Below are positions 9,163-13,291 of a stretch of 25,277 nucleotides of DNA, one piece after another (positions within the stretch are counted from its first letter, which is position 1; each line of letters starts with the position of its first letter). Source of the DNA: a virus. A model generated the notes under the pieces. The model had not been told where the DNA came from, did no database searches, and was given only the letters and a program-made list of their open reading frames with translations. A program made the position numbers and the translations under genes. The stretch is taken from positions 1 to 25,277 of IMG/VR virus record IMGVR_UViG_3300025141_000677. One strand, given 5' to 3'.

Positions 9163-11571
9163 TTATTTATCGAGATTGAGCATTGACATAATCGGTGCGT
9201 TCGTACTCGTTTGTGAAAATAGTTGTGCTACTGTGGTCGTGGCTACACTAGCAACTTTTGTATTTCCTGCGTCATTCCACACTAGATTTATTTCTAGGGG
9301 CTGTTCAAGAAGAGATTGAAGCAGTGGCGGAACACTCATCATTGGCCCTTGCTCTTCTTCGCCCGCGCTGGGTTGTTGGTATCCGCTGTATGGTCGCATT
9401 AAAGGCTCGTCGCCTGCGCCAGCTCTAAAAGGAGAAGCATATCCTTCGGGGGGAAGTCTCATTCTGCCAATTTCCACGAGTTCAGCCTCTAATTTTGCTT
9501 TTTCGGCAGACAGTCCCCCCATCTTACGTTTAACATTTTCATTATTTGGATCAAGCCATCCCCCTGCATAACGAGATCTATAATCCTCGATCTCCGACAA
9601 CTTTCCTTTAACAACGTCCTCGCGCTCAAAAGCTTCTCGGGTCATGCCTGGATACTTAAATAATTGGGATTGCATTTGAAGTTCTTTCTTCGCATCCGCC
9701 GCCCCGGTTCCGAACATCGCATAGCCCATAGGCCCGGTGGCCATGTTTGCCATCATACCAGTAAGCTGAGACATAAGTTGAAAAAATGAATGTTTCATAT
9801 TAGTAAACCATCCTATCACAGCGTTCGCCATTCTTGATACAGTTGCTTCAATCCCACCCTTGAAAAATCCTCTGTTGTTAACGAAATCTTCCCATAAGTT
9901 TTTAAGTGGACCTTTCACAAATTGATCAAAGAACCGTTGAGCTTTTGGGAGCATTACATCAAACCAATCCCCCAAGCCTCTCATCGCAGCAGGAATATTA
10001 TCTTTAAGAAATACATAAAGACTTTTCACATGATCCAACATTGGAAAACCCATGTCTCCCGCATGTGCATATTTATCAAAGAAGCTCATTACAATTACAT
10101 CAAGAGATACAAATTTTGCCTTTATTTTGTCCCAAAGTGCTCCCAAGTTGTCCCAATGCAAATATACTGTTGCCAAACCAGTGATCATAATAGACCACGG
10201 GTTTGTAAGAAGACCCATTAATGGACCAGCAATCTCCTTAACTTTTCCAAGAGCCAACGAAAAAAGTGATGCTTTAACAATAACTTCTCCAATGGTAACA
10301 ATAGAATTTTTAAAATCACCATCCAATGCTCGCCACCATTTGAAAATATTTTCAACACCCGCAGCAAAATGGTCAATAACACCAGCAGATTTGCTTAATT
10401 CTATTCTAGCCCAATTTGTAAACATTCGAGCAACTGGCAGAAAAGCTTTTCCAAAAACATTTGATAAGCGATTAAATTCTGCCGACCATTGTTGAGTAAG
10501 TGTAACACCATCTCTTATTGCCTTGGTTAAATCTTGTTGTGCGACGATAGCCGGATCAGCTTTGTTCGCGATTTCATCCCAAGTTGCTTGCTCTGTTCCA
10601 AACAACTTCATGGCATCTGTCATGTCTGAGATTCCCAAAACTGTGGCAACCCCTTTGCGCTGGAAGCGATCCATCATCTCCCAACTTTGGCCCGAAGCTC
10701 TAATTGATTCACGAATCATTTCAACTCGCTGTTCTTCTGAGGCTGTCAACATATCCACACTATTGATAAGATTTCCTCCCAACATAGCATTAAGTTGACC
10801 AGCTTTTTGAGCAGCTTGTTCAAATGTATCAAAGCCGCTTGCAATTTGTAAAAGAGTATTTATTGCAATTCCGGTTGCTTTTGATTGAACAGCCAATCCT
10901 TTAAAAACGGAAATACCTGATTGACCATATTTTGCAAGATTGCTCATCGCTGGGCCGAAAGCCCCTTCAATAACTTTTGGTGCCATCTCAATGGAAAGGG
11001 CGAACTTTTTCATATCATCAGAGGCTTTCTGAGATTGATCAATGCTCATTCCCAATCCTTTGCGATAGATATCAAAATTCTTGGTGGATGTTTGAATCGA
11101 AACACCCAAGCGAGTAAACCCAAGAGCTTGTTGAGTAATAGCATTTTGTGCTTTGGGAGCTAAAAGACTAAATTCAGAATAATTGTTATATAATTCAGAA
11201 AATGCGGCTTGTGTTTCAGAAGTTGCAACCCCCAAATCAGTCATTTTGGCCTGAAGATTGACTGCCATTTCAGCAAATTCTTCACCGCGACCAGTTGATT
11301 GTTGAAGTTCTGCTCGTAATTTATCTATATCTGTGGCAGCTTCAGCGAAACCTTTTAAGTTGGTTTCACCGACGCCCATCGCTTTCGCAAAATCTGTTGC
11401 TGCTCCTGCGGCTTCTTCAAAAGGCACCGCCAATGCTTCAGCATTCTTCCGCAGCGTTTTCATAATGTTTGCAAGCGCGGCTGCACCAGTTACCGTTTTA
11501 AGTGCTTCGGCGGCTTTGGCGGCTTTGGTTGGATCTACAGTGCCTCCGCCTTCTCCATCATTTTCTGCCAT
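9163..11571 (-). CDS. Tail tape measure protein
   Basis: This is an 802-residue, Ala-rich, largely helical protein between the frameshifted chaperone-like gene and the tube initiator. The N-terminal ~400 residues have the small-residue helical texture of tape measures (for example ATDFAKAMGVGETNLKGFAE). Around residues 430-475 there is a hydrophobic block (IVTIGEVIVKASLFSLALG, then SIMITGLATVYLHW) that may insert into the host membrane, and a second small hydrophobic stretch rich in Met and Gly lies near 605-630. No peptidase or lysozyme motif was noted. By the usual rule of about 1.5 Å per residue the tail would be roughly 120 nm (estimate). The ribosome site GAGGA is about 13 nt from the ATG, longer than usual. 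An ACTATTTAAT element lies 24 nt upstream. Confidence 0.9.
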   Translation of the reverse strand: MAENDGEGGGTVDPTKAAKAAEALKTVTGAAALANIMKTLRKNAEALAVPFEEAAGAATDFAKAMGVGETNLKGFAEAATDIDKLRAELQQSTGRGEEFAEMAVNLQAKMTDLGVATSETQAAFSELYNNYSEFSLLAPKAQNAITQQALGFTRLGVSIQTSTKNFDIYRKGLGMSIDQSQKASDDMKKFALSIEMAPKVIEGAFGPAMSNLAKYGQSGISVFKGLAVQSKATGIAINTLLQIASGFDTFEQAAQKAGQLNAMLGGNLINSVDMLTASEEQRVEMIRESIRASGQSWEMMDRFQRKGVATVLGISDMTDAMKLFGTEQATWDEIANKADPAIVAQQDLTKAIRDGVTLTQQWSAEFNRLSNVFGKAFLPVARMFTNWARIELSKSAGVIDHFAAGVENIFKWWRALDGDFKNSIVTIGEVIVKASLFSLALGKVKEIAGPLMGLLTNPWSIMITGLATVYLHWDNLGALWDKIKAKFVSLDVIVMSFFDKYAHAGDMGFPMLDHVKSLYVFLKDNIPAAMRGLGDWFDVMLPKAQRFFDQFVKGPLKNLWEDFVNNRGFFKGGIEATVSRMANAVIGWFTNMKHSFFQLMSQLTGMMANMATGPMGYAMFGTGAADAKKELQMQSQLFKYPGMTREAFEREDVVKGKLSEIEDYRSRYAGGWLDPNNENVKRKMGGLSAEKAKLEAELVEIGRMRLPPEGYASPFRAGAGDEPLMRPYSGYQQPSAGEEEQGPMMSVPPLLQSLLEQPLEINLVWNDAGNTKVASVATTTVAQLFSQTSTNAPIMSMLNLDK

Positions 11572-11637: not shown

Positions 11638-11847
11638 CTAGCCAAGATGATTACGGCTATTGCGAGAAGTGTTTTGGGATCTTTCCATTTCTTCTTTTTC
11701 TCGTATAAATTCTTTTTCTATACGTTTAACCCACCATTCTCTTAATTGGATTGGTAGATTATAGGCTTCAATAAAACTCCATCCACCATATTGTTTGAGG
11801 TAGAAGAACTGTTCGTATATATTTTCAATATATCTATCACTCAGGCC
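11638..11847 (-). CDS. Frameshift extension of the gp26-like protein (GT-type product)
   Basis: Downstream of the seven-T run, the +1 frame is open for 69 residues to a TAG at 11640-11638. It begins GLSDRYIENIYEQFFYLKQ and continues with GGWSFIEAYNLPIQLREWW, then a highly charged helix (KRIEKEFIREKEEMERS). There is no ATG, GTG or TTG near its start, so it is best explained as an extension of the upstream protein, giving about 342 residues in total (343 if the shift is -2). The F-L-x-x-x-G-x-x-x-x-E-A-x-x-L-P-x-x-x-R-x-W motif is typical of the small T-domain of tail assembly chaperones. In phages with a gene G/GT arrangement, the short form binds the tape measure and the extended form recruits tube subunits. 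A sequencing indel in the homopolymer is the main alternative. Confidence 0.7.
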   Translation of the reverse strand, partial: GLSDRYIENIYEQFFYLKQYGGWSFIEAYNLPIQLREWWVKRIEKEFIREKEEMERSQNTSRNSRNHLG

Positions 11848-12667
11848 AAAAAAAGTTGGCTGAGAATGGGATATTACTTACGTTGCTGGCGTTACATGAC
11901 TCACAATCAACTAATTGTGTCATATCAACATCCGGGCGCACTTTATCATATTCTTTACGAAGATGAGTAGAGTCAAGTGCTGGCATAATATCTACGAATT
12001 CTTCAACCACCCCCTTGTCGGCCACTCCGTTAAGTGACACAATGATTTTTTTATACTGATCGGTCATGGACGAATCAGGTAATTTAAGTTTTTGTTTTTT
12101 CTCGGCTTTGTCCAATAACATCTTTTCATCATCGCCTGTTAGCAAACAACATTCTGCTACAACTTCAGTTTTTGGTAAAGTAATAAAAAATGTACCACTA
12201 TCTGAAAATCTTATTTCTTCTGAGGTTTCTTTTATTTTTATTTCACCGAGATCAAACTCATGTTCTGAAGCTGCTCCACAATGTTGACATGTAAGCTGAA
12301 CATCATATTTCTCTCCAAAGCCACTAATTCGTGCTGCAATAATTAAAGCATTTTTATCACCAGTAAACAGTTGTCGTGTTTTGATATTTTTATCTACCAA
12401 AATATTTTCGAGCATTCTATCAACTGCAAGTCCTTTCTTCAAAAGACTTTTTGATGTAAGAATATCCGTTTCTTTAGCAGTCATGTAACGTATTTCTACA
12501 GTTTCCACATTGTGCAACGGGTGTTCGGGGGGATAAAATTTTCCTTTTGTTGGGAGTTCAACAAACTCCGTTGGAATTACAAAACTTAAAGGTGATTTTG
12601 TGTTTTCAATGGGTGGCGATCCACCCTCATCTTGAACCCCGAGTCGAGATTCATCATTTCTTGGCAT
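11837..12667 (-). CDS. gp26-like tail/baseplate assembly protein (0-frame product)
   Basis: The 276-residue protein shows the T4 gp26-family signature (T4_baseplate type): LPTKGKFYPPEHPL at 38-51, VEIRYMTAKETDILTSKSLL at 57-76, KKG at 78-80, DKNIKTRQLFTGDKNALIIA at 92-111 and RISGFGEKY at 113-121. Two CxxC pairs (C127/C130 and C255/C258) could bind zinc. The start has AAGAGG. T4 gp26 helps assemble the baseplate hub, but here the gene sits between tube and tape measure, where tail assembly chaperones lie in lambda, P2 and SPO1. The 0 frame stops at 11837 just after a seven-T run, and an open +1 frame continues for 69 residues. Both facts suggest a chaperone role like lambda gpG/gpGT. Confidence 0.8.
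   Translation of the reverse strand: MPRNDESRLGVQDEGGSPPIENTKSPLSFVIPTEFVELPTKGKFYPPEHPLHNVETVEIRYMTAKETDILTSKSLLKKGLAVDRMLENILVDKNIKTRQLFTGDKNALIIAARISGFGEKYDVQLTCQHCGAASEHEFDLGEIKIKETSEEIRFSDSGTFFITLPKTEVVAECCLLTGDDEKMLLDKAEKKQKLKLPDSSMTDQYKKIIVSLNGVADKGVVEEFVDIMPALDSTHLRKEYDKVRPDVDMTQLVDCESCNASNVSNIPFSANFFWPE
11848..11854 (-). promoter_or_regulatory. Candidate slippery site (seven T) for +1/-2 frameshifting
   Basis: In the sense direction the gp26-like frame reads AAC TTT TTT TGG CCT GAG TGA. Skipping one T, or slipping back two, joins the 0 frame to the open 69-codon frame. A -1 slip would meet TGA after two codons (TTG GCC TGA), so -1 is excluded. No pronounced pseudoknot is obvious by eye. 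A homopolymer sequencing error would look the same. Confidence 0.55.
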
Positions 12668-12706: not shown

Positions 12707-13291
12707 CTATGGTGCCACGTTCACGCCTGGGGTCGTTGGGTAATTCTTGTCACCAGCAACACTAAGATATGCATTATCATACCTTAATCCGATGGAAACG
12801 TTTAATAAATCTTCAGTTCCATAATCTAGTGATCCAAAATCAGCAGTCTTAACCCAAGCATTATTTAAAACCCATTCTTCAATTACTACACCTTCGGCAT
12901 TTAAAGTTTTAATCTTAACAGTGCCCAAACCAGTAACTGAAGCTTTTTTAGACATAGATTTTCTATCGGCTGCGGCCACGGGAGTCGTAGGCAGTTCATA
13001 TCCAGAAGCTTCTAAAAGTTTCATTACTTGTTTACTTGCATTTGCAGTTGGATCTACAGTATCTACTACAACAAAATTAACTTCCTGCCATGCAAAACGA
13101 CCAGGATAGAAAAAAGTATGGTTTAAGAAATTATGTGAACCTTCACCAACTGCTACAGCAGGCTTTTTCACACTTTTAATAAGAAATTGTGAAATACCAT
13201 CAGATCCGCCAATGCTTCCGCCTTGTACACTTAAGAGAAAGCGAAAACCTCTCTTGGGTTCCAAATTTACATTTTGCCAAAAATTCGCCAT
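12707..13291 (-). CDS. Tail tube protein, gp19-like
   Basis: The 194-residue protein follows the sheath gene, the usual place for the tube gene. GFRFLLSVQGG near residue 15, FYPGRFAWQEVNFVVVDTVD near 65-85 and IEEWVLNNAWVKTADFGSLDYG near 140-165, ending in LRYDNAYL, match the order of strands in gp19-type tubes (W-x-x-V-T-x-x-D, then E-x-W-x-L-x-N-A-W-I, then G-x-L-D-Y). T4 gp19 is 163 residues. The protein stacks as hexameric rings to form the DNA conduit. GGGAG lies 13 nt ahead of the ATG, a loose spacing. A diverged ACTACTTAGT copy of the repeated element lies at 13311-13320. Confidence 0.88.
   Translation of the reverse strand: MANFWQNVNLEPKRGFRFLLSVQGGSIGGSDGISQFLIKSVKKPAVAVGEGSHNFLNHTFFYPGRFAWQEVNFVVVDTVDPTANASKQVMKLLEASGYELPTTPVAAADRKSMSKKASVTGLGTVKIKTLNAEGVVIEEWVLNNAWVKTADFGSLDYGTEDLLNVSIGLRYDNAYLSVAGDKNYPTTPGVNVAP

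Follow-up and report, generated by a model that had tools for sequence, protein, structure and literature searches.

The question raised by this locus is whether a gp26-like gene whose reading frame closes just past a run of seven Ts gives rise to one protein or two and, if two, in which direction the ribosome changes frame. The window, by which we mean the whole stretch of 25,277 nucleotides that was analyzed (IMG/VR virus record IMGVR_UViG_3300025141_000677), is from a marine T4-like phage. It also encodes a gp23-like major capsid gene, and no tRNA genes were found in it. The features of the locus are as follows.

11837–12667, minus strand: 0-frame ORF of 276 amino acids plus stop, predicted short tail assembly chaperone (T4 gp26-like; TAC-N or lambda G role)
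11638–11847, minus strand: +1-frame extension of 69 codons plus TAG, predicted C-terminal domain of the long chaperone (TAC-C, lambda T role, T4 gp51 tail)
11638–12667, minus strand: predicted 342-amino-acid long chaperone (TAC-NC, GT, gp51-like), obtained by a conceptual translation that skips one base at the site
11846–11854, minus strand: shift site TTT TTT TGG, with the seven-T run at 11848–11854
12707–13291, minus strand: upstream neighbor, gp19-like tail tube protein (PHROG 4542, E 8e-19; PF06841, E 0.0013, below the cut-off)
9163–11571, minus strand: downstream neighbor, probable tape measure protein of 802 amino acids, assigned by position only

As stated in the first-pass annotation, the 0 frame ends just past the seven-T run; its 3′ end reads AAC TTT TTT TGG CCT GAG TGA, with the stop codon at 11837–11839. 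The +1 frame, described there as open and devoid of a nearby start, is indeed open from 11877 to the TAG at 11638–11640, which gives 69 codons past the shift, and it contains a single ATG, GTG or TTG codon, namely an ATG that lies 54 codons beyond the shift. The −1 frame at the site (TTG GCC TGA) closes after two codons, so that a −1 shift is excluded in the window as had been claimed, and the canonical −1 arrangement (X_XXY_YYZ with the extension in the −1 frame) is absent. This layout of frames is far from chance. The proposed position of the short ORF between tube and tape measure genes was confirmed on the upstream side by identification of the tube gene; on the downstream side, Pfam and PHROGs searches gave no family match to the 802-codon ORF 9163–11571, which is weakly similar (E 0.002) to the gene at the same position in Microcystis phage Mel-JY01. 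From the comparison with relatives, we consider it very likely that the gene encodes a short and a long tail assembly chaperone, the long one being made by a predicted +1 frameshift at the T run. On this reading, the gene is the T4-like counterpart of lambda G/GT.

The first search for relatives gave 38 loci, further scans added 235, and isolate phages and two huge-phage assemblies extended the set. The T run and both frames were compared across these loci, as the first-pass annotation had proposed, and the layout was kept in all 36 relatives from the first round whose 3′ end is intact and in 118 loci overall. Among the 284 loci with a recognizable gp26-like ORF, these 118 (104 distinct) carry the extension in the +1 frame and 161 (121 distinct) carry a homologous extension in the −1 frame; the remaining five are cut by contig ends near or before the site. 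Twelve extra loci from genome contigs were all +1. The labels of RM378 (+1) and Atu_ph07 (−1) rest on the site and the open frame and not on the extension profile: the +1 label of RM378 (L045), which has the site TTT TTT TGG and an open +1 frame with an extension that fails to match the profile, is tentative, and Atu_ph07 (L046) was assigned from its T_TTT_TTC site and open frame alone. For each of the 102 distinct +1 loci whose site is standard, the 0-frame stop lies 3, 4 or 6 codons past the slippery codons, and in the −1 loci it comes after 1 or 2 codons. In the tree a single change of direction suffices; the +1 group as a whole is poorly supported (29/0) because of the long branches of L043, L044, L045 and L046. 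One of these, the huge phage LR756511 (L044), adjoins the +1 phages in the tree, yet it has a −1 extension behind T_TTT_TTC.

Seven-T runs are error-prone in some sequencing methods, but the same layout occurs in more than 100 assemblies and in isolate genomes, those with the +1 layout including Flavobacterium phage immuto and Microcystis phage Mel-JY01, and we give hardly any credence to a sequencing or assembly error in the homopolymer. No frame-fusing indel was found in the T run among the relatives. Their T runs are broken only by substitutions (TTC TTT T, TTT CTT T, TTT C), which keep a +1-compatible site, and a plain indel as the origin of the two frames found no support.

The direction of the shift is reflected in the codons at the site. 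Of the 104 distinct +1 relatives, 102 have the pattern (TTT/TTC) (TTT/CTT) T.., and the other two have TTT C. The second slippery codon of these 102 loci is TTT in 100, CTT in 2 and TTC in none, and a T follows it in every case. Members of the −1 group have T_TTT_TTC, with TTC as the second codon, in 117 of 119 cases. TTC accounts for 21% (+1 group) and 31% (−1 group) of the Phe codons elsewhere in these genes, and the codon contrast between the groups is significant when counted over 35 sequence clusters (Fisher p = 6e-8). The same two Phe codons are thus spelled oppositely according to the direction of the shift, and this is the strongest argument that both groups were assigned the right direction. 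The A-site codon in the +1 clade is TGG, TAC or TAT, mostly encoding Trp or Tyr. The T run is broken with retention of the +1 layout in L034 and L082 (TTC TTT T), in L027 and L041 (TTT CTT T) and in L040 (TTT CTA), and these breaks sit on separate branches of the tree. CTT T, the codon of prfB, is found in L027, L028 and L041. For Streptococcus phage GXN1 (L043), either TTT C or CCC C may serve as the site.

The first-pass annotation had left the shift as either +1 or −2. A Mu-like −2 slip would lead to the same frame with one extra residue, and on TTT TTT T, where UUU re-pairs perfectly, the window alone does not decide between the two. Across the family, Mu-type re-pairing fails in several members, since it would place tRNA-Phe on UCU in L034 and L082 (TTC TTT T) and on ACU in L040 (AAC TTT CTA), even though it is possible at the window's own site. 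Moreover, TTC as the second codon would suit a −2 slip but is present in 0 of the 102 loci, and the next base, irrelevant for −2, is always T. Several lineages have an interrupted T run but retain TTT-T, CTT-T or TTT-C; +1 therefore fits better than −2, which we regard as unlikely. The comparative data thus favor the +1 half of the original claim, and the −2 half can be argued against from the sites of the relatives.

Slippage of RNA polymerase on the seven Ts, giving some transcripts with an altered number of Us, would account for the frame as well, as most members have the seven-T run and a transcript short of one U would be read in the +1 frame. At least five lineages, however, keep the layout with runs of just three or four Ts (TTTTCTTT, TTCTTTT, TTTC), which are presumably too short and make transcript slippage unlikely there. 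The −1 relatives, in turn, have a canonical ribosomal heptamer with Shine-Dalgarno-like and downstream-structure bias. Overall, we consider slippage during transcription very improbable.

The extension might also be a separate gene, translated by internal initiation or by stop-start reinitiation. Close to the gp26 stop, 113 of the 121 distinct −1 relatives have an ATG in the frame of the extension, and Pseudomonas phage Cygsa01 combines a TAATG overlap with the lack of a slippery site. In the window, by contrast, no ATG, GTG or TTG occurs in the extension frame until 54 codons past the shift, and 29 of the 102 +1 loci lack such a codon up to codon 15. Two genes would, in addition, leave the direction-specific codon choice at the site unexplained, and no relative with two genes and their own starts was found on the window's side of the tree. 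We therefore consider independent initiation of the extension highly improbable in the window.

Selection on the extension was assessed in 24 distinct members of the window's clade. Over its first 50 codons the median dN/dS was 0.14, compared with 0.18 over the final 100 codons of the 0 frame. Most substitutions in the extension hit third codon positions of the +1 frame, and stops average 3.3 and 5.8 per locus in the two remaining frames. These values point to purifying selection on both frames. Comparison of the relatives thus shows a conserved layout, a conserved site and selection for both reading frames, and the locus has the features of a G/GT-type gene, namely an overlapping extension in another frame that is under selection and a short ORF that ends at a slippery site.

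The family assignment of the short form is consistent with this reading. The 0-frame protein scored 55.3 bits with PF12322 (T4_baseplate; cut-off 24.5), which places it in this family, and matched PHROG 150 (baseplate hub) with E 8e-18; the PF12322 scores of T4 gp26 and gp51 are 215.6 and 177.5 bits. T4 gp26 covers positions 14–235 and gp51 positions 13–280 of the 282 positions of PHROG 150. In the alignment, gp26 stops at the shift point of the other phages, and the tail of gp51 runs on and aligns with the extensions. Profile comparison linked the +1 to the −1 extensions (E 1.4e-5) and the −1 extensions to the T4 gp51 tail (E 1.7e-4). These two T4 paralogues group together in the tree as sisters (97/86), on long branches amid the −1 phages. 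The tail present in gp51 only, the profile matches and the sister relationship of the two proteins indicate that T4 appears to use two genes for what its relatives encode in one frameshifted gene, so that the gp26/gp51 pair appears equivalent to that single gene. A candidate family for the extension, DUF6760 (PF20546), stayed below its cut-off (18.8 bits against 27); it matches weakly in 13 of 42 extensions (best E 5e-4) and was absent from 14 control genomes.

For structure prediction, the short form and the extension were modeled apart, as plain translations of the window. The model of the short form had a pLDDT of 84, and its best two PDB entries in VIA-align were 3klu (YqbN; Z 5.7) and 2ob9 (the HK97 tail assembly chaperone; Z 5.5), over residues 19–122, matches that could be coincidental at Z values below 8. 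We take 3klu to represent a prophage tail-chaperone family. 2ob9 was also the top Foldseek match, with a weak E of 0.89, and a PDB sequence search with the 0-frame alignment gave no meaningful match. The extension was modeled as helices at residues 4–21, 25–29 and 33–67 (pLDDT 90). Foldseek against viral models gave only weak matches for it, which include Prochlorococcus phage Gp51 and two annotated chaperones. The chaperone role suggested in the first-pass annotation is supported by the comparative data, and these weak structural matches are compatible with it. The gp26-like protein also contains two distant CxxC pairs (CQHC and CESC; window 11840–12290, minus strand) and gave weak matches to zinc-binding folds, which suggests that the pairs form a split zinc site; they are missing in phage immuto (L041).

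According to the proposed mechanism, most ribosomes would stop three codons past the slippery codons and release the short form (276 amino acids, gp26- or G-like). A minority would pause with peptidyl-tRNA-Phe on UUU and UGG unfilled in the A site. Re-pairing of the P-site tRNA one base forward, from UUU to UUU, would make GGC the next codon and yield the 342-amino-acid form. If lambda G/GT is a guide, the N-terminal part common to both forms would coat the tape measure protein, and tube subunits would be recruited by the added C-terminal domain. That slippage takes place, how efficient it is, that the step is exactly +1 and that the products act as chaperones are inferences. Upstream of the +1 sites no Shine-Dalgarno-like bias was found, and downstream RNA structure in the +1 group gave no signal above the control (mean z −0.76 versus −0.56). 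The −1 group shows Shine-Dalgarno-like upstream bias and stable downstream structure (mean z −1.98); the upstream bias is only suggestive of a stimulator because it overlaps conserved coding sequence.

The link between the T4 gp26 family and the G/GT strategy that was part of the original claim holds. It is not new, however, as it was published by Vladimirov, Gautam and Davidson (2022, Virology 566:9–15), and the wider family mostly uses −1. T4 has one short and one long chaperone gene, and poly-T −1 signals are known from T4-like chaperone genes; the same gp26/gp51 family, with the two-gene T4 arrangement and −1 relatives, was recovered here. The category, that is, gp26/gp51 as G/GT-type genes, and the −1 signals of T4-like phages are thus already known. 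Unlike the T4-like chaperone genes with T TTT TTC, the window's clade shifts +1 at TTT TTT T(GG/AC/AT). It likewise differs from lambda G/GT, where the shift is −1 (Xu, Hendrix and Duda 2004; reviewed in PMC5009743) and to which it is likened by layout, site and selection. The 2016 review (PMC5009743) presents T4 as the exception to G/GT frameshifting and mentions that some phages use +1 and −2. The older literature describes T4 gp51 as an essential protein that is missing from the particle and whose function is unknown.

The closest mechanistic parallel is bacterial prfB (CUU UGA), in which the P-site tRNA also slips forward by one base and whose CUU-U is found in L027, L028 and L041. UUU is among the most or next most +1-slippery codons at the RF2 site (PRFect paper). 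Whereas the A site of prfB holds a stop codon and the signal includes a Shine-Dalgarno element, the window's clade has a sense codon at that place and no evident element of this kind. What appears to be new is a large +1 clade with a sense A-site codon and opposite codon choice at the homologous site. We lean toward regarding it as a new class of programmed +1 signal, consisting of UUU_U or CUU_U with a sense A-site codon (Trp/Tyr) and no evident stimulator in a large clade, in which the homologous Phe pair is the canonical −1 signal of the relatives and the direction changed in evolution with both products kept. Two directions at one spot in one gene provide a natural comparison of how a signal is reversed while its products are retained, and the clade offers a large testable set of +1 sites without the stop codon and Shine-Dalgarno element of prfB.

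Public records either lack the long chaperone or show it split. What is annotated in Synechococcus phage Sf-FS3 as a "baseplate hub assembly catalyst" (cyanophage gp51; L048:3199–3390) has its start ATG within the −1 extension; it probably corresponds to the C-terminal domain of the long protein and not to an independent gene. Extensions are annotated as separate or shortened hypothetical proteins in Mel-JY01 (L042:3761–3997), immuto (L041:3833–3943), L051 and L046. Cyanophage entries named "gp51 baseplate hub assembly catalyst", together with several hypothetical proteins, most likely represent the long chaperone's C-terminal domain. A comparable situation was described for the chaperone locus of phage Adele and the Vandenendeviridae (PMC12846349), which has a conserved T-rich frameshift and an extension usually annotated as a separate gene; that shift differs in being −1 with GTTTTT and in occurring in other phage families. 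The locus of Cygsa01 (L052:2072–2982) has no canonical slippery site, and the overlap of the gp26 stop with the extension start (TAATG) suggests that reinitiation replaces frameshifting in this phage.

Two further observations were made. A 276-amino-acid ORF at 1108–1938 of the window (minus strand), which has no Pfam match, contains GLGNAGCNIVDKF and GAGKVSSA motifs that, as an impression only, recall tubulin/FtsZ-like proteins. The 306-kb contig NHDW01000006.1, binned as Methylococcaceae, carries the same gp26-like gene near both ends (L292 and L293) and is probably a large phage genome with terminal repeats.
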